From Marinitoga hydrogenitolerans DSM 16785 (lineage in GTDB: Bacteria; Thermotogota; Thermotogae; Petrotogales; Petrotogaceae), in NCBI RefSeq assembly GCF_900129175.1, contig NZ_FQUI01000015.1, positions 1 through 46,419 on the forward strand: DNA of 46,419 nt. Direction: 5' to 3'. Every line of letters begins with the position of its first letter. Position 1 is the first letter of the stretch. The notes below the pieces were generated by a model. That model was not told where the DNA came from. It ran no database searches and was given only the letters and a program-made list of their open reading frames with translations. Positions 10,041 through 43,548 of the stretch are shown here, one piece after another. The translations under genes were made by a program, and so were the position numbers.

Positions 10041-10070
10041 GAAATTAGAATTTGACAAGAGGTGATTAAA

Positions 10071-11408
10071 ATGGAATTTATCGATGTAGTGGTTGAAAAA
10101 ATAGTTAATGGTGGCTATGGTTTTGCTAGATATGATAATAGAATTTATATGATAGAACATGCTTATCCAGGAGAATTTGTTAAAATAAAGATTAAAGGAA
10201 ATAAAAAAGATGTATATTTTGCGGAAGTGGTGGAGTATTTAGAAAAATCCCCATATAGAAATAGAATGATATGTCCGTATTTTCAAAAATGTGGAGGATG
10301 TCAATTGTTAGATTTAGATTATAAAGAACAGTTAAAAATCAAAACAAATATAGTTAAAGAGCAAGTTAGAAGAATTGGTAAATTAGATGATAAACTTGTT
10401 ATAGATGCAATAGGGTCTGACGAAATAATTAATTATAGGAATAAAATGGAATTTTCTTTTGCATATGATAGAGGCGAAATAAAATTAGGATTAAAAAAAA
10501 GAAATAGTAATGAAATTATAAACGTAAAAAAATGTTTAATTGCCCCAAAAGAGTTTAACAAGATTATAAATGAAACAAAAAAGATATTTGAAGCGTTGAA
10601 TTTAAAAATATATAATCCAAAAAGTAAAAAAGGAGAATTTAAACATTTAGTATTGAGAAAATCATTTTCAAAAAATGAAATTATGAGTATATTCATTACT
10701 AAAACAGAGTATATCACTAATTATAAAAATTTTAAATCTTTAATAAAAGAAAGAATTAAATCTGATTCTATTATACACGTAATGAATGGTTCGGATTCTA
10801 TAGTTTTAAGGGGACCTTATAAAACATTAAAAGGTGAAGGAGTTATAAAAGAAGAATTTGATGGTTTTACATTTCAAATTCCACCTACAGCTTTTTTCCA
10901 GAATAATTATAATGTAACTAAAAAAATATTGAATGAATTTGTAAAAATAGTTAAATCAGAAAAAATTACAGGAAATCTTTTGGATTTATATTCGGGAGTA
11001 GGGTTGTTTTCAATTTATTTAGCACCACTTTTTAAGCATGTAACTGGTGTTGAAAGTAATGGTATTTCTGTAAAAGCAGCCCATTCCAACGCTAATATAA
11101 ATGGAATAAAAAATACGTCTTTTATAAAAAGCGATGTTCAGGAGTTTATTAAGGAATATGATAAAAGAATAGATTTATTAATTATAGATCCGCCGAGAAG
11201 TGGGGTTAGTAAAGAAGTCTTAACTAAGATTTTACAATTAAAACCTAAAAATATTTTTTATTTATCTTGTGATTCTACAACTTTAGCAAGAGATCTTTCG
11301 AATTTGAAGAAAACCTATAATATTGAATTTATAAGACCTTTTGACATGTTTCCTAATACATTTCATATTGAAAATTTTGCGTTTTTAAAGGTGATTAATA
11401 GCGATTAA
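10071..11408 (+). CDS. rlmD: 23S rRNA (uracil-5-)-methyltransferase, RlmD/RumA type
   Basis: Starting at the ATG at 10071, which has AGGTG six bases upstream, the protein is 445 residues; a GTG at 10062 overlaps the ribosome site and is rejected. It makes 5-methyluridine in 23S rRNA with S-adenosylmethionine. An N-terminal TRAM domain (about 1-55, VVEKIVNGGYGFARYDN) is followed by an iron-sulphur motif CPYFQKCGGC, the Rossmann SAM site LLDLYSGVGLFS, motif LLIIDPPRSGV, and the catalytic cysteine in LSCDSTTLARDL. All family signatures are present. Whether the target is U1939 (RlmD), U747 (RlmC) or both cannot be told from sequence by eye. Confidence 0.9.
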   Translation: MEFIDVVVEKIVNGGYGFARYDNRIYMIEHAYPGEFVKIKIKGNKKDVYFAEVVEYLEKSPYRNRMICPYFQKCGGCQLLDLDYKEQLKIKTNIVKEQVRRIGKLDDKLVIDAIGSDEIINYRNKMEFSFAYDRGEIKLGLKKRNSNEIINVKKCLIAPKEFNKIINETKKIFEALNLKIYNPKSKKGEFKHLVLRKSFSKNEIMSIFITKTEYITNYKNFKSLIKERIKSDSIIHVMNGSDSIVLRGPYKTLKGEGVIKEEFDGFTFQIPPTAFFQNNYNVTKKILNEFVKIVKSEKITGNLLDLYSGVGLFSIYLAPLFKHVTGVESNGISVKAAHSNANINGIKNTSFIKSDVQEFIKEYDKRIDLLIIDPPRSGVSKEVLTKILQLKPKNIFYLSCDSTTLARDLSNLKKTYNIEFIRPFDMFPNTFHIENFAFLKVINSD

Positions 11409-21906: not shown

Positions 21907-22557
21907 TTACTCGTTTATTAGAATATGTATTCTATCACAAACATTTTGTGTAACATCGGCAATTCTTGCGAGTAGCAACACTAATTCTCGAACATATAAA
22001 AAATCCACAGGATGCATATTGTTTTTTTGTGAATATAACCATTTTCCAAATTCAAATAATTTATTATCAATATCTTTTTCAAACCATTTCATCTCAGAAA
22101 TATCCTTTTCTTCAGAGGAAATTGTATTTTTAGAAAAATCGGATTCTAATATAACTTTTATATATTTTACAGTTTTTTTAAAATGATCAAGCATTTTTTC
22201 AATTTCGTCAACAATTGAGTAAATCATTTTTTTATGCTCTTCATCAAAATCAATTTTATTAAATGTCATCTTTTTTGCAACATCTTCTATTAAATCTATA
22301 ATTTTATCTTGTAAATCGATAAAATCAAGCAATTCAGATCTTTCGAATCTGTATAAATGACCTCTCTTTAAATATTGACGAAAATTTCTTTTGATATCAT
22401 CAGCATCATCTTCAAGCTTGTCAATTTTGTTGACAATATCTTCTATGGGTTTATTGTTTAGATATCTTTCAAATAATTCCGGCAAATAATCTGATGCTTC
22501 TTCTACAATGCGCGCATGTTTTATTAACTCTTCTATGGGATTGAATTTTTGAAACAT
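21907..22557 (-). CDS. DUF47 phosphate-transport accessory protein (PhoU-like)
   Basis: This all-helical cytoplasmic protein (216 residues from the ATG at 22555-22557) belongs to the DUF47/TIGR00153 family, a PhoU relative usually encoded next to Pit. Seen here are the paired helices with VNKIDKLEDDADDIKRNFRQYL and LLDFIDLQDKIIDLIEDVAKKM, whose acidic clusters match the metal-binding face of PhoU proteins. The start is unclear. The ATG used here has only GGGGT close by, while a strong GGAGGTG (22582-22588) lies upstream and faces ATT at 22573-22575 at the usual six-base spacing; the GTG at 22582-22584 is part of that ribosome site. An ATT start would add six residues. It probably regulates Pit. 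Confidence 0.85.
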   Translation of the reverse strand: MFQKFNPIEELIKHARIVEEASDYLPELFERYLNNKPIEDIVNKIDKLEDDADDIKRNFRQYLKRGHLYRFERSELLDFIDLQDKIIDLIEDVAKKMTFNKIDFDEEHKKMIYSIVDEIEKMLDHFKKTVKYIKVILESDFSKNTISSEEKDISEMKWFEKDIDNKLFEFGKWLYSQKNNMHPVDFLYVRELVLLLARIADVTQNVCDRIHILINE

Positions 22558-22593
22558 CTTACCCCAAATGGTAATAACAATCACCTCCAGATT

Positions 22594-36053: not shown

Positions 36054-36644
36054 GTGGTACTTATAAAAAAGTATCTAATTATATTTTTAGTATTGATAAC
36101 AATAATTGCACATGGTGAAGTAAAAAGTTATAATTTAACTAATGAAACAAATGTAAAATTATTTTTGATGGATTTTATGAGTCGTGAGTATAAATTAACA
36201 ACTGGAAAAGAATTAAAATCTGAAAGAAAAGTATTATTGGCAGAAAGTATTTTAATAGCTTCAAAGGAGTTTAATATATCACCATTACTCATAGCATCCA
36301 TAATTGATATTGAGACAAATTTTAGAAATGTTATAGGGAAATATGGTGAAATTGGATATATGCAAATCAGAACTGAAACAGCTAAATATATTATTGAGAT
36401 GTATATAGAAACATTTAGAAGATATAATTATGATAATTTAGATTTAAATTGGATAAAATCAAGATTATTATATGATCCAAAATATAATATTTTAGTTGGG
36501 ACTGCTTATTTGGATTATCTCGAGGAATTACATGGTGATATAACCCATGCTATAAGTTGGTATAATGGTGGAGGTAATTCATATTATTTAGAAAAAGTTG
36601 TATTTAAAATTGCACAAATGACAATAGAATATCCAATAATATAA
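36054..36644 (+). CDS. Secreted lytic transglycosylase (SLT/GH23)
   Basis: Counted from the GTG at 36054 the protein has 196 residues, with a signal peptide (KKYLIIFLVLITIIAHG). A GH23 lytic transglycosylase fold is seen: the catalytic Glu in IASIIDIETNF, the GEIGYMQI strand (GxxGLMQI in the family), and ISWYNGGGN near the C-terminus. It cleaves peptidoglycan glycan strands, forming 1,6-anhydro ends. The start is unusual: the GTG is part of the ribosome site GGAGGTG, and the base spacing used by other genes here points to ATA at 36063-36065. No ATG exists near the beginning. The 10-bp gap to the GH13 gene suggests one transcript. Confidence 0.8.
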   Translation: MVLIKKYLIIFLVLITIIAHGEVKSYNLTNETNVKLFLMDFMSREYKLTTGKELKSERKVLLAESILIASKEFNISPLLIASIIDIETNFRNVIGKYGEIGYMQIRTETAKYIIEMYIETFRRYNYDNLDLNWIKSRLLYDPKYNILVGTAYLDYLEELHGDITHAISWYNGGGNSYYLEKVVFKIAQMTIEYPII

Positions 36645-36650
36645 AATACT

Positions 36651-36675
36651 AAGGAATCACACTTTGTGATTCCTT
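36651..36675 (+). terminator. Hairpin after the lytic transglycosylase gene
   Basis: AAGGAATCACA (36651-36661) and TGTGATTCCTT (36665-36675) form a perfect 11-bp stem with a 3-nt loop. No strong T run follows, so termination may be weak or the hairpin may stabilise the 3' end. Confidence 0.6.
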
Positions 36676-36802
36676 ATGTGTTATAATTAATTAGAAATAA
36701 CAAAAATACGAAAAACTATTAAAAAAGAAAAAATAAAGCAATTTCAAAAACTAAAAAAATAAATATTAATAAGATGTTAATTGAAAATAATTTAATTAAG
36801 AG

Positions 36803-38056
36803 GTGATCAAAATTTTAAAAGAAGATTTAAAGAAAATAATTGATTATTCTATTAATTCAGTTTTACCAGAAAATGCAGTTAAAGAAAATTTAAAAAAAAT
36901 AGAATTTAAAAAGAATAAAGTATTTTTGATATCTATTGGAAAAGCAGCGTGGAGAATGGCGAATGCTGCAAAAGAAGAATTAAAAGATAAAATACAAAAA
37001 GGTATCGTTATTACAAAATATGATTATGGTCTTGGAAATATTAAAAATATGGAAATATATGAAGCTGGTCATCCTATTCCAGATAAAAATTCACTTAAAG
37101 CAACTAAAAGAGCAATAGAATTAATAAAAAATCTGGATGATGACTATGAAATATTGTTTTTAGTATCAGGAGGAGGCTCTGCATTATTTGAACTGCCAGA
37201 AAATGGTGTTACTCTTGATGATATACAAAACATAACAAGTCAATTATTAAAATCTGGAGCTGATATTGAAGAAATAAATGCTATACGAAAAAGATTATCT
37301 AAAGTTAAAGGTGGAAAGTTTGCTAAACTGTCATATCCAAAACAAATATATGCGTTAGTTCTTTCGGATGTTTTAGGAGATAAATTGGATAGTATAGCTT
37401 CTGGACCAGCGTACACAGATAAAACAACTACAAATGATGTATTTAATATTATTAAAAAATATGATATAAAAATAAACACAGAGATAAAGAAGGTTTTGGA
37501 AAAAGAAAGACCTAAAAATATAAGTAATACAAAACATATAATTATAGGAAGTGTGAAATTAGCTTGTGAATATGCAATGCAAAAAGCTAAAGAATTGGGG
37601 TATAATCCATTACTTTTAACAACAATGTTAAATTGTGAAGCAAAGGAAGCAGGAAGATTTTTTGCAAATATTGCAAAAGAAGAAATAAAATCAAATAACC
37701 CAATAAAAAAACCCTGCGCAATAATTGCTGGCGGTGAGACTGTTGTTATGGTAAAAGGAAATGGGATTGGTGGAAGAAATCAAGAATTAGCTTACTCCTT
37801 TGCTATTGAAATAGAGGGAATAGAAAATATAGTATTCGCTTCAGTAGGGACAGATGGAACAGATGGTCCTACAGATGCAGCGGGAGGAATTGTTGATGGC
37901 GATACAATCAAAAAAATAAAAAATAAAGGATTAGATCCGCTTATTTTTTTAGAAAATAATGATACCTATAATGCTTTAGAAGAATCAGAATCTTTATTAA
38001 AAACAGGACCAACAGGTACTAACGTAAATGATATTATGATTTTATTAATAAATTAA
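36803..38056 (+). CDS. Glycerate 2-kinase, MOFRL type
   Basis: Counted from the GTG at 36803 the protein has 417 residues, like the Thermotoga glycerate kinase. It phosphorylates D-glycerate to 2-phosphoglycerate, entering lower glycolysis. The N-terminal domain carries IGKAAWRMA and FLVSGGGSALFELPENG; the C-terminal MOFRL domain carries GGETVVMVKGNGIGGRNQELAYSF and GTDGTDGPTDAAGG. The start is doubtful: the GTG lies inside the ribosome site AGGTG, and the usual six-base spacing falls on ATT at 36812-36814 (GATCAAA spacer), giving LKEDLKKI as the first residues. No ATG is near. It is a single gene between a hairpin and the cotH promoter. Confidence 0.9.
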   Translation: MIKILKEDLKKIIDYSINSVLPENAVKENLKKIEFKKNKVFLISIGKAAWRMANAAKEELKDKIQKGIVITKYDYGLGNIKNMEIYEAGHPIPDKNSLKATKRAIELIKNLDDDYEILFLVSGGGSALFELPENGVTLDDIQNITSQLLKSGADIEEINAIRKRLSKVKGGKFAKLSYPKQIYALVLSDVLGDKLDSIASGPAYTDKTTTNDVFNIIKKYDIKINTEIKKVLEKERPKNISNTKHIIIGSVKLACEYAMQKAKELGYNPLLLTTMLNCEAKEAGRFFANIAKEEIKSNNPIKKPCAIIAGGETVVMVKGNGIGGRNQELAYSFAIEIEGIENIVFASVGTDGTDGPTDAAGGIVDGDTIKKIKNKGLDPLIFLENNDTYNALEESESLLKTGPTGTNVNDIMILLIN

Positions 38057-38319: not shown

Positions 38320-40257
38320 ATGAAAAAAGTATTTATTTTAATTATAATATTAATAAACATAAGTATTTTTTCTATAGAAAAAGCTATTAATCCAATATTT
38401 TCAAAAGAGGCTGGGTTTTATAGTAAACCCTTTTCTTTAAAATTATTTTCAAATGCAAAAGACGCTAGGATATATTATACTATTGATGGCTCTGACCCGA
38501 AACCAGGCAAAAAAAATACATATTTATATACTAAACCAATTGAAATTAAAGACATGACTTTAAAAGAAGGTATAGAATACATAAAAACATCACCAGAATG
38601 GAAAGTCCCTAGAGGAAATGTTTTTAAAGGTATGATTATTAAAGCTAAGGCAATATGGAATAATATTGAAAGTGAAATTGTAACAAAATCTTATTTTATA
38701 GGTAAAAAATATGATATATTAGCAATATCTATTGTAGTTTCACCTGAAAAATTATTTGATCCAAATGAAGGTATATATATTCCAGGTGTCGATTATAATA
38801 AAAAAAGTAAATTTTCATCTTGGACAGGAAATTATTATAGAAGAGGTAAAGAGAGCGAGGTAGAAGTTCATGTGGAGTTTTTTGAAAATGGAAAATTAAT
38901 TTATAAAGACAATTTAGGTATGAGAATTAGTGGGAATTTTTCAAGAATGTTTCCAATGAAGTCGCTCAAATTTTATGCAAGAGATAAATATGGCGAAAAA
39001 AAGATTAAAATACCAATATTCCCAGATTTGAAAAATATAATAGGAGAAGAGATAAAAAAGTATGATAAATTTATGATTAGGAATGGAGGAAATGAGTTTG
39101 GGAAAATATTTTTTAAAGATGCGTTTATGCAAACAGTAATTTCAAATATGGGATTTGAAACTCAAGCGTATAGACCAGCAGTTCATTTTATAAATGGTGT
39201 ATATTGGGGTTTAGGAAACGTAAGGGAAAGATATAGCAAAGATTATTTTAAAGAACATTATTTTATAGATGATATATCTATTATAGAACTAACTTCCGAA
39301 TTTAAAGAACATTTTGTTTTAAATGAAGGAAATGAAGAAGCATTAAAAGATTTTAAAGATTTAAGAAATTTTATATTAAATAATGATATGAATAAAAAAG
39401 ATAATTATGAATATATAAAAACAAAATTAGATATACAAAATTATATTAATTTTTATATATCTGAGATGTTTTTTGACAATAGGGATTGGCCTTCTAATAA
39501 TATGAAATTTTGGAGAAAAAATGAAAAAATATATAATATTAAAGGATATGATGGAAAATGGCGATTAGCAATTTATGATATGGATAATGGTATGTATACT
39601 ATTAGTTCAAATATGTTCAAACATACTATAGATGATCATCCAGAAGTTGAATTTCATCCAAATCCAATTTGGTCTACAATAATGTTTAAAAAATTATTAT
39701 CTAATAAGAATTTTAAAGAAAAATTCATAAATAGTTATTTAGATAGATTGAATACAACTTTTTTATATACAAACACATCTCAAATATTTTTAAATATGTT
39801 TAATCAATATTCTCCTTATTTAAAAGAATACTTAAATAGATGGAATTTAATGAATTATGAAAAGTATATGAGTATGGTAGAATATAATCTATCTTTTTTG
39901 AAGAAAAGGCCTGAAGTTGTAAAAAAACAAATGAAAGAATATTTTAATATAAATATAGTGAAATTGGAATTAAAAAGATTTTCAGGTAAAATAAAAATAA
40001 ATACGGTAGAATTTACAAAAGGACAGAAAATTGAGTATGCTAAAGAAATACCAATTACTTTGACTGCTATAGGAAATTTCAAGTATTGGATAATAAATGG
40101 AGATAAGAAATTTGAAAAAAATATAACAATATATCCTAAAGAAGGATTAGAAATAAAACCTGTTTTTGAAGAAGAGAAGAATAATTTCTTAATCCCATTA
40201 ATAACACTTTTTCTATCTTTCTTAGGTATATATATATTATTGAATTCTTCAAAGTAG
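38320..40257 (+). CDS. Membrane-anchored CotH-family protein kinase-like protein (CotH-1)
   Basis: A 645-residue exported protein. Signal peptide (about 1-19), then a chitobiase/CHB_HEX-type beta domain (about 22-128, with YYTIDGSDPKPGKKNTYLY), a CotH kinase domain (about 130-540) and a C-terminal hydrophobic anchor (about 622-642, FLIPLITLFLSFLGIYILL). In the CotH part are RISGNFSRMFPMKSLKFYAR (Lys214/Lys217 region), RNGGNEF, INGVYWGLGNVRERY, the catalytic-loop-like DNRDWPSNN (386-394) and the metal-binding DMDN (420-423). Secreted CotH proteins of Bacillus phosphorylate other proteins with ATP. A beta domain rich in 'KYWIINGDKKF' precedes the anchor. It is the first gene of a four-gene cassette, with the next gene 10 bp downstream. 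Confidence 0.88.
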   Translation: MKKVFILIIILINISIFSIEKAINPIFSKEAGFYSKPFSLKLFSNAKDARIYYTIDGSDPKPGKKNTYLYTKPIEIKDMTLKEGIEYIKTSPEWKVPRGNVFKGMIIKAKAIWNNIESEIVTKSYFIGKKYDILAISIVVSPEKLFDPNEGIYIPGVDYNKKSKFSSWTGNYYRRGKESEVEVHVEFFENGKLIYKDNLGMRISGNFSRMFPMKSLKFYARDKYGEKKIKIPIFPDLKNIIGEEIKKYDKFMIRNGGNEFGKIFFKDAFMQTVISNMGFETQAYRPAVHFINGVYWGLGNVRERYSKDYFKEHYFIDDISIIELTSEFKEHFVLNEGNEEALKDFKDLRNFILNNDMNKKDNYEYIKTKLDIQNYINFYISEMFFDNRDWPSNNMKFWRKNEKIYNIKGYDGKWRLAIYDMDNGMYTISSNMFKHTIDDHPEVEFHPNPIWSTIMFKKLLSNKNFKEKFINSYLDRLNTTFLYTNTSQIFLNMFNQYSPYLKEYLNRWNLMNYEKYMSMVEYNLSFLKKRPEVVKKQMKEYFNINIVKLELKRFSGKIKINTVEFTKGQKIEYAKEIPITLTAIGNFKYWIINGDKKFEKNITIYPKEGLEIKPVFEEEKNNFLIPLITLFLSFLGIYILLNSSK

Positions 40258-40267
40258 AGGAGGGAAT

Positions 40268-42175
40268 ATGGAAAAATTAAAAGTAATAATCTTCTTTTTA
40301 TTTTTATCATCAATTTTTTTTGGGAAAACTTTGAAAGAATTAAATCCCGTATTTTCTAAACAAGCTGGTTTTTATGATAACTCGTTTTATTTAGAATTAT
40401 CATCAAGTATAAAAGATGTCAAGATTTATTATACGTTAGATGGATCTGAACCAGATCCTAGAAAAAAGAATACATATTTATATAATAAACCGATTAAAAT
40501 AAGAACAGTAGAAAATGAAAAAATTGTATTTTCAAATATAAAAACCTCTGTTTTTTGGGAACCGCCTAAAAGAAACATTTTCAAATGTGTTATTGTTAGG
40601 GCTCGTGCGTATTTAGAAGAAAATAAAAGCAAAATAATTACAAAATCTTATTTCATTGCCCCGAAAAATAAATATTCATTTATTGTTATATCTGTTGTAA
40701 CTAATCCTGAAAATTTATTTGATTATAATAAAGGTATATATGTTTTAGGTAAAACATTTAAATATGATAATGAAAGTTCAGAAGAATTTAAAGGGAATTT
40801 TCATCAAAATGGAAAAAAATGGGAAAGAAGAGTTCATATTGAGTTTTTTGATAAAGGAAAGCTAATGTATGCAGATGATATGGGAGTAAGAATACATGGT
40901 GGGTTTACAGCGTCTTTTCCGTTAAAATCATTAAGACTTTATGCAAAGAGTAAATATGGTAAAAAGAAGATAAAATATGAAATATTTCCATTTCTAAAAA
41001 ATAATTATGGCAAATCAATTAGAGAATTTGATAAATTAATTCTGAGAAATGGTGGTAATGATTTCCAAGAAACATTTTTTAGGGATGCATTAATACAAAC
41101 TTTAGTAAAGAATATGGGATTTGATACACAGGCATATAGACCAGCAATTCATTTTATAAATGGTGAGTATTGGGGAATTACAAACATAAGAGAGAGATAT
41201 GATGCAGATTATTTATATGAGCATTACAAAATCTCTAAAAAAGATAGTATTATTTTAAAGATTTCAGATAATCCGAATGACAAAAATCATTTTGTTGTAG
41301 ATGAAGGTAAAAAAGAAGATCTATATCCGTTTTTAGAATTAAAGAATTTCATTGTAAATTACAATATGAATATTAAAAAAAATTATGAATATGTAAAAAA
41401 AAGGATTGATATAAAAAATTATATTAATTATAATATAGCGGAAATTTTTATATTTAATGAAGATTGGCCAGGGAATAATGTTCGTCTATGGAGGAAAAAA
41501 GGGAATATTACAAATGAATATGGGCATGATGGGAAATGGAGGTTTATGTTATTTGATACAGATAATTCTTTGTTTTTATATGATCACAATACAATAAAAT
41601 ATGCTATTGATGGAAATCCGAATGTAATTTTTCCGAATCCAACTTGGTCAACAGAAATGTTAAAAAATTTATTAGAAAATAAAGAATTTAAAGATCAATT
41701 TATTAATACATTTATGGATCATATAAATACAACATTTTCTGCAGAAAACACACTATCTATTGTAGAAAGATTTAAAAATATATATAATAAAGAAGTAATA
41801 GATCATATTGATAGATGGAATTTTCCAGAATCTTATGAGTATTGGTTGAATGCCATAAATTATATAAAGATTTTTTTTTCCGAAAGACCAAAATACATAA
41901 TAAAGTATTTAGAAGATTACTTTAGATTAAAAAAACATAACTTTGTTTTAGAAGAATTTAAAGGAGGGTATATATCAATAAATTCTGCAACTTTTTATAA
42001 AGCTAAAAAATTAACTTATTTTGAAGGTATACCTATAACATTAACAGCACATAGTTATAATGGGTATAAATTTAAATATTGGATAATAAATGAACGAAGA
42101 TATGAAAATAAAAAGATAATACTTGATCCAAATTTAATTGAAAATATTAAACCGGTTTTTGAAAGAGTGAAATAA
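40268..42175 (+). CDS. Secreted CotH-family protein kinase-like protein (CotH-2)
   Basis: A 635-residue paralogue of the preceding gene with the same order: signal peptide (about 1-19), CHB_HEX-like domain (about 24-130, YYTLDGSEPDPRKKNTYLY), CotH domain (about 135-550), and a C-terminal beta domain (FKYWIINERRY). Kinase-like motifs are RIHGGFTASFPLKSLRLYAK, LRNGGNDFQETFFRDAL, INGEYWGITNIRERY, FNEDWPGNN (396-404) and FDTDNS (429-434). Unlike the first copy it ends in FERVK without a membrane anchor, so it should be released or loosely attached. GAGGAGG precedes the ATG, and its last base is shared with the VTC gene start (TAATG). The divergent catalytic segments suggest different targets. Confidence 0.88.
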   Translation: MEKLKVIIFFLFLSSIFFGKTLKELNPVFSKQAGFYDNSFYLELSSSIKDVKIYYTLDGSEPDPRKKNTYLYNKPIKIRTVENEKIVFSNIKTSVFWEPPKRNIFKCVIVRARAYLEENKSKIITKSYFIAPKNKYSFIVISVVTNPENLFDYNKGIYVLGKTFKYDNESSEEFKGNFHQNGKKWERRVHIEFFDKGKLMYADDMGVRIHGGFTASFPLKSLRLYAKSKYGKKKIKYEIFPFLKNNYGKSIREFDKLILRNGGNDFQETFFRDALIQTLVKNMGFDTQAYRPAIHFINGEYWGITNIRERYDADYLYEHYKISKKDSIILKISDNPNDKNHFVVDEGKKEDLYPFLELKNFIVNYNMNIKKNYEYVKKRIDIKNYINYNIAEIFIFNEDWPGNNVRLWRKKGNITNEYGHDGKWRFMLFDTDNSLFLYDHNTIKYAIDGNPNVIFPNPTWSTEMLKNLLENKEFKDQFINTFMDHINTTFSAENTLSIVERFKNIYNKEVIDHIDRWNFPESYEYWLNAINYIKIFFSERPKYIIKYLEDYFRLKKHNFVLEEFKGGYISINSATFYKAKKLTYFEGIPITLTAHSYNGYKFKYWIINERRYENKKIILDPNLIENIKPVFERVK

Positions 42176-42846
42176 TGAAAAAATATTATAGATATGAATT
42201 AAAATATTTAATTAGTTATCAGAATTATATAGTTTTACGAAATAAACTGAAAAATATAATGTTATTAGATGAAAATGCTAATAATTTAGGGTTTTATTAT
42301 GTTAGAAGTTTATATTTTGATGATTATTTGAATACTGCATATTATGATAAATTAAATGGGATTATGAATAGGTATAAATATAGAATTAGGATTTATAATT
42401 TTCAAGATAATGTTATAAAGCTTCAGAAAAAGATTAAAAAAGGGAATTTTTCCACAAAGATAGATAATTTAATAGATAAAAAAGAATATTTTAAATTTAT
42501 TAATGAAAGAAAATGTTGTTTAGATAATAAAGTAAAAGATTTTTGTTTTTTGATGAAATATAAAAGATTAAGCCCTGTCGTAATAATAGACTATGAAAGA
42601 GAAGCTTATAAATATAAATATGGAGGAGTGAGAATTACATTTGACTTTAATTTAAAAGCAACAACATTTAATAAAGATATTTTTGCAAAAGATCTAAAGT
42701 TAATAAATGTATTAGAAAAAAATAAGATAATATTAGAAGTAAAATTTGAAAAATTTATTCCTTTCGTAATAAAAAATATTATTAAAAATTCTCGAATTAA
42801 TATGTCAATTTCAAAATATGTAATTTGTAGGTCAGTATTTATATAA
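42175..42846 (+). CDS. VTC-domain protein, polyphosphate polymerase-like
   Basis: A 223-residue CYTH-like tunnel protein of the VTC domain family, which in yeast makes polyphosphate from ATP and is common in bacteria next to CotH and DUF4956 genes. The strand pattern and basic residues expected in the tunnel are seen: YRYELKYLI, RSLYFDD, NRYKYRIRIYN, IKLQKKIKKGNFSTK, YKRLSPVVIIDYERE, RITFDFNL and ILEVKFEKFIP. The repeated Arg/Lys-x-Arg/Lys and Glu-x-Lys positions match phosphate and metal binding. It has no membrane segment, so it is cytoplasmic or associates with DUF4956. It overlaps the cotH-2 stop by one base; the DUF4956 gene follows after 27 bp. Confidence 0.9.
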   Translation: MKKYYRYELKYLISYQNYIVLRNKLKNIMLLDENANNLGFYYVRSLYFDDYLNTAYYDKLNGIMNRYKYRIRIYNFQDNVIKLQKKIKKGNFSTKIDNLIDKKEYFKFINERKCCLDNKVKDFCFLMKYKRLSPVVIIDYEREAYKYKYGGVRITFDFNLKATTFNKDIFAKDLKLINVLEKNKIILEVKFEKFIPFVIKNIIKNSRINMSISKYVICRSVFI

Positions 42847-42873
42847 TATTATTTATTTGGAAGAGGTGTTATT

Positions 42874-43548
42874 ATGAATCAAGTAATAATTGATATGTAT
42901 AACCTAATTTCCTCTCAAACGAGAATGAATATTTCAATATATAGCGTTTTATTCACTTTATTAATATCTTTTTTTGAAGGATTAATAATATATTTTGTAT
43001 ATAAAAAAACTTATCAAGGTGTAATTTATGTAAAGTCATTTAATGTATCATTAATTATATTATCCATGATTACATCTATGATAGTAGAAGCTATAAGTTC
43101 TAATTTTGTGCTTTCTTTTGGGATGGTAGGAGCTCTAAGTATAATACGTTTTAGAACAGCAATAAAGGATCCTTTAGATACAGTTTTCATGTTTTGGGCA
43201 ATTTCGATAGGTATAGTAAACGGAGGAGGATTTTTTTTATTAGGATTTTTTGGTACAATACTAATATCTTTAGTATTAATTATTATGATGGAAATCCACA
43301 GTTTTAATAATCCCTATTTATTAATAATAAACTACGATTCAGTAAATGTTGAAAAAGATATAAATCAATTTATGAAAATGAATTTTAAAAGGTATAAAGT
43401 TAGGTCGAAAAATTTTAATGATAAAATAGAAATAACTTATGAAATTAGAATAAAAAACTTTGATTTAATCAATGAATTAAAAAAAATAAAAGGTATTGAA
43501 AATATCTCATTAATAAGTTATAGTGGAGATTACATAGAAACAATATAG
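42874..43548 (+). CDS. DUF4956 membrane protein
   Basis: A 224-residue protein with about four membrane segments in the first 145 residues and a soluble C-terminal domain (about 146-224) that looks ACT-like (IEITYEIRIKNFDLINELKKI). The DUF4956 signature FGMVGALSIIRFRTAIKDPLDTVFMFWAISIG is clearly present near residues 85-118. This family is repeatedly found beside VTC-domain and CotH genes and is thought to be their membrane partner; its biochemical role is not known. GAGGTG precedes the ATG. The stop codon lies inside a bidirectional terminator. Confidence 0.88.
   Translation: MNQVIIDMYNLISSQTRMNISIYSVLFTLLISFFEGLIIYFVYKKTYQGVIYVKSFNVSLIILSMITSMIVEAISSNFVLSFGMVGALSIIRFRTAIKDPLDTVFMFWAISIGIVNGGGFFLLGFFGTILISLVLIIMMEIHSFNNPYLLIINYDSVNVEKDINQFMKMNFKRYKVRSKNFNDKIEITYEIRIKNFDLINELKKIKGIENISLISYSGDYIETI

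Follow-up and report, generated by a model that had tools for sequence, protein, structure and literature searches.

Start region of the glycerate kinase gene

At which codon does translation begin when the only usual start codon within reach lies inside the ribosome binding site? This question is raised by a glycerate kinase gene on the forward strand of the window, by which we mean the whole analyzed stretch of 46,419 nucleotides from Marinitoga hydrogenitolerans DSM 16785. If started with ATT, the coding sequence runs from 36812 to 38056 and encodes 414 amino acids. The product contains the Pfam domains DUF4147 and MOFRL and matches the solved glycerate kinase 2b8n with an E-value of 3e-149; on both counts it is a glycerate 2-kinase of the MOFRL/GckA type. 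Orthologues were found in 56 of 61 genomes. A terminator-like 12-bp hairpin (36650 to 36676, forward strand) separates the gene from a transglycosylase gene upstream, and positions 38320 to 43548 hold genes for two related secreted-looking CotH-like proteins, followed by VTC-like and DUF4956-like genes, as judged by eye.

Read codon by codon, the glycerate kinase frame consists of TAA (36797), which closes it, GAG (36800), GTG (36803), ATC (36806), AAA (36809), ATT (36812) and TTA (36815). A preliminary description of this DNA had named the GTG at 36803 to 36805 as the only usual start, lying inside AGGTG, and the letters bear this out exactly. The next ATG, GTG or TTG in frame is a TTG located 38 codons into the conserved protein, which leaves no usable canonical start at the conserved N-terminus. 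The same description correctly placed AGGTG (36801 to 36805), a spacer of six bases (ATCAAA) and the ATT (36812 to 36814), and it correctly pointed to the matching geometry of rlmD, where AGGTG-ATTAAA-ATG (10060 to 10073, forward strand) leads to a canonical ATG at 10071.

AGGTG belongs to an extended Shine-Dalgarno (SD) sequence, GAGGTGATC (36800 to 36808, forward strand), which is complementary over nine bases to the 3' tail of 16S rRNA, GGATCACCTCCTTTCT, as read from the sampled sequence of one genome of the genus (G002) and one of a sister genus (G007). The anti-SD energy is -12.4 kcal/mol for ATT versus +1.3 kcal/mol for the GTG at 36803, and the value for ATT beats that of 78% of the sampled ATG genes. 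With 8 bases from the GG of GAGGTGATC to the AUU, the SD is extended, strong and correctly spaced.

We consider it very probable (roughly 0.86) that glycerate kinase starts with fMet at the AUU at 36812, and that the GTG is a part of the SD and not a start. In the proposed mechanism, GAGGTGATC would pair with the 16S tail over its nine bases, and the AUU would thereby come to lie in the P site; the distance of 8 bases is the one that weak starts typically have in these genomes. The yield would be expected to lie below that of AUG and to respond to the level of IF3.

The aligned codon in related species

Across the genus, the codon aligned with the candidate AUU is ATT in five of seven genomes (G000, G001, G003, G004 and G006), ATC in one and ATG in one. 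The ATG, in G002 (GGGGGAATTGCT-ATG), falls exactly on the position of the ATT codon. The ATC, in G005 (GGAGGAGATATT-ATC), is accompanied by neither GTG nor ATG, and an ATT three bases earlier offers an alternative reading. The start codon is thus kept within the genus, or swapped for ATG in place. In other genera of the family, TTG or ATG occurs near this position. The preliminary description had proposed AUU initiation and had suggested aligning the start region in relatives. No ATG is conserved elsewhere, the one ATG of the genus stands on the ATT codon, and the proposal gains support from the ATT, ATC or ATG at the aligned codon as well as from the SD energies.

G001 has an ATG directly 3' of the GTG of its SD, which is unlikely to serve as start because the SD is too near. 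The G003 gene (C13:170900-173400) is broken by frame changes, as are several further genes of this genome; these changes are probably assembly errors.

GTG versus ATT as initiator

Translation might instead start at the GTG at 36803, within GAGGTG, to give (f)M-I-K-I-L..., with the ATT as codon 4. Gene finders restricted to ATG, GTG and TTG would pick this GTG, the sole canonical in-frame start, and an in-frame GTG nine bases upstream is also present in 5/7 glycerate kinase and 5/7 transglycosylase genes of the genus, as well as in the genes for DNA polymerase III delta' and Mfd. We nevertheless regard a GTG start as improbable, with some small probability left for it, or for dual use of GTG and ATT, in the window gene.

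The GTG is missing from the glycerate kinase genes of two of the seven genus genomes (G002 and G005), so that it is neither universal nor needed in this gene, and it is out of frame in two transglycosylase genes. Where present in glycerate kinase genes of the genus, it is essentially without an SD of its own, with one exception in five (G003, where a second AAGGA upstream yields -9.3). Over 31 cases, the median SD energy of the upstream GTGs was +0.5 kcal/mol, compared with -14.2 kcal/mol for the AUN candidates and about -11 kcal/mol for ATG genes.

Conservation points in the same direction. A GTG start would leave codon 4 free, whereas this codon is AUN in essentially every sequence and codons 2 and 3 are variable. 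We also pooled samples of G004, G002 and G007 and recorded the codon six bases after a strong SD with an in-frame GTG. This codon was ATG in 53 cases, TTG in 19, ATT in 7, GTG in 6 and ATA in 4, and anything other than NTG, ATT or ATA in just 6 of 95. ATT and ATA together make 11 cases versus 1.8 expected (P=1e-7 among non-NTG codons, P = 1.3e-4 with each gene family counted once).

The recurrence of the in-frame GTG could be taken as proof of GTG initiation, but we rejected this argument because TTG starts share the underlying spacing preference. In the same pooled samples, the 8-base SD spacing was found for 22/32 TTG starts versus 62/211 ATG starts (P=3e-5), and TTG starts favored longer spacing also where the SD contains no GTG (P=7e-4). 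Weak starts prefer 8-base spacing, and an in-frame GTG within the SD follows from that spacing. TTG starts often have an in-frame GTG nine bases upstream.

A sequencing or assembly error that conceals a genuine ATG is hardly credible. The window belongs to a draft assembly in 87 contigs and the G003 copy is frameshifted, but ATT occupies the same codon in four further species of the genus whose genomes were assembled independently (71-77% protein identity), and two more window genes have proposed starts of the same non-canonical kind.

Other genes with proposed AUU- or AUA-type starts

These two further cases emerged when starts were read for all genes of the window. The SLT-domain lytic transglycosylase gene just upstream of glycerate kinase (36063 to 36644, forward strand) has a proposed AUA start at 36063 (GGAGGTGGTACTT-ATA AAA AAG), which would open a signal peptide. 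The corresponding genes of G006 (GGAGGTGATAGT-ATT) and G001 (GGAGGTGATATT-ATA) have their GTG in another frame and a TAA just before, which leaves no canonical start, only ATT or ATA. The other case is a gene for a DUF47/PhoU_div protein (21907 to 22575, reverse strand) with a proposed AUU start at 22575-22573 (GGAGGTGATTGTT-ATT). Its ATT arrangement is common to the genus, and ATG takes the place of that codon in the sister genera represented by G007 and G011.

The AUU start of infC served as a positive control for our reading of starts: this gene has ATT in all seven genus genomes and AUU, AUC or AUA in most other Thermotogota inspected. For the genes of DNA polymerase III delta' and Mfd, the arrangement is RGTG-N6-ATT/ATA in all, or almost all, of the seven genomes; in G000, an ATG just ahead of the ATA provides an alternative start for delta'. 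Further instances have a canonical codon in some species. Thiamin pyrophosphokinase (TPK) has ATT in G002 versus ATG on the same codon in six other species, argS has ATT in a sister genus (G007) versus ATG in G002, and in an IclR gene the ATT of G009 corresponds to a TTG in G044. For FabK, the apparent starts in three genera are ATA, ATA and ATT. Some scan candidates, G004 29209 and window 16690 among them, were dropped because they resemble SD-like sites inside genes.

Together, these comparisons of start regions support the view that the AUU/AUA arrangement recurs in genes of the genus and family and is not peculiar to glycerate kinase. The same mode of initiation would be shared by infC, the DUF47 gene, the lytic transglycosylase gene and the genes for delta' and Mfd.

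Frequency of candidate ATT, ATA and ATC starts

To estimate frequency, we sampled five genomes of the family, about 1.6 Mb in all: the window and stretches of 400 kb from each of G004, G002, G007 and G009. We counted open reading frames of 100 codons or more that have a strong SD close to their 5' end but lack an NTG within range. ATT, ATA or ATC was found at the start position in 33 cases versus 10.6 expected from codon usage, an approximately three-fold excess (P=1.5e-9). Because orthologues and genomes are pooled, the P values for enrichment overstate independence and are to be read as indicative. The 33 cases include some false positives, about 10 of the 33 being expected by codon usage, and the count less the expected background corresponds to about 1-2% of the sampled open reading frames.

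Two outgroup samples combined contained 8 ATT, ATA or ATC cases versus 6.1 expected. In the low-GC outgroup G056, there were 6 versus 2.8 expected (P=0.054). The excess in the family was not significantly different from that in G056 alone (P=0.17), and a restriction of the AUU/AUA excess to the family is therefore not established. G056 has a normal IF3, and two of its genes, one for an RseP-like protease and the other an open reading frame of 372 aa, have plausible AUU starts (sample positions 263740 and 269062).

If there are indeed several AUU-type genes per 400 kb in this family, gene callers misplace or miss their N-termini.

IF3 and start codon discrimination

IF3 of the family carries a distinctive motif. 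It reads FLGRD in all 21 family genomes checked versus FRGRE (once FKGRE) in all 29 other Thermotogota. In an alignment to E. coli IF3 (chain 8jsg_A), L127 corresponds to R131 and D130 to E134. In many sequences, EGRDMWM is changed to xGRDMDM. We take R131 of E. coli IF3 to be a position of start codon fidelity. The infC362 allele of E. coli carries R131P and relaxes discrimination against AUU, AUA and AUC.

It is conceivable, if on balance doubtful, that start discrimination is relaxed in the whole family (Petrotogaceae-like, as judged by overall resemblance), through R131L and E134D in IF3 (E. coli numbering), with AUU or AUA used in about 1-2% of genes, together with extended SDs. The genes concerned would then include replication, repair and metabolic genes. 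We put forward the link between the IF3 change and the AUU starts as a hypothesis, not as a result. If AUU starts do occur in several genes per 400 kb, the family would be a natural experiment on IF3 fidelity, and a one-residue swap could address the old problem of how IF3 determines which start codons are permitted.

The competing account has about even chances and concerns the IF3 hypothesis only, not the AUU start itself. It holds that the AUU start is real and has no trans-acting cause: low GC content and strong SDs would let AUG drift to AUU or AUA in genes that tolerate it, with the IF3 change unrelated. G056 fits this account, as it belongs to another family, has a GC content of 32% and the FRGRE form of IF3, and yet two of its six cases look real; the lack of a significant difference between the family and G056 alone also favors drift without a role of IF3. 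S. aureus likewise has AUU and AUA starts with extended SDs (PMC13009471). Drift is harder to reconcile with the retention of ATT across several species in glycerate kinase, the DUF47 gene and infC, and of ATT or ATA in the genes for delta' and Mfd, which suggests selection instead, and the distribution of FLGRD (21/21 in the family, 0/29 outside) argues for a role of IF3.

Comparison with known systems

In E. coli and other bacteria, infC starts with AUU and is subject to autoregulation by IF3. Glycerate kinase resembles infC, itself an ATT gene throughout the genus, in combining a probable AUU start with a strong SD; unlike infC, it is a metabolic gene without known IF3 feedback. In S. aureus, cvfC1 (AUU), ccpN (AUA) and citZ (AUA) have extended-SD starts with about 10% of the AUG yield, which were mapped by Ribo-Ret and reporters, and cvfC1 and ccpN are conserved among related species (PMC13009471). 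Extended SD pairing with AUU or AUA also characterizes the candidates described here, which were identified from sequence and outnumber, per genome, those of S. aureus. E. coli pcnB is cited in PMC13009471 as a chromosomal gene other than infC that is limited by its AUU start; it is isolated in its own genome, whereas glycerate kinase would be one of several such genes. Streptomyces sigR, whose start is repressed by IF3 and for which IF3 control was tested (PMC5472188), is another rare start outside infC and a model for IF3 control, although its codon is GTC and not AUU.

AUU starts are treated as curiosities: across 36 groups of genomes, a reconstruction that covered 61,358 AUG starts detected a single switch to AUU (PMC5622118). 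The kind of initiation that we propose for glycerate kinase is already known; what is new is its apparent recurrence, at unusually high frequency, through a genus and its family.
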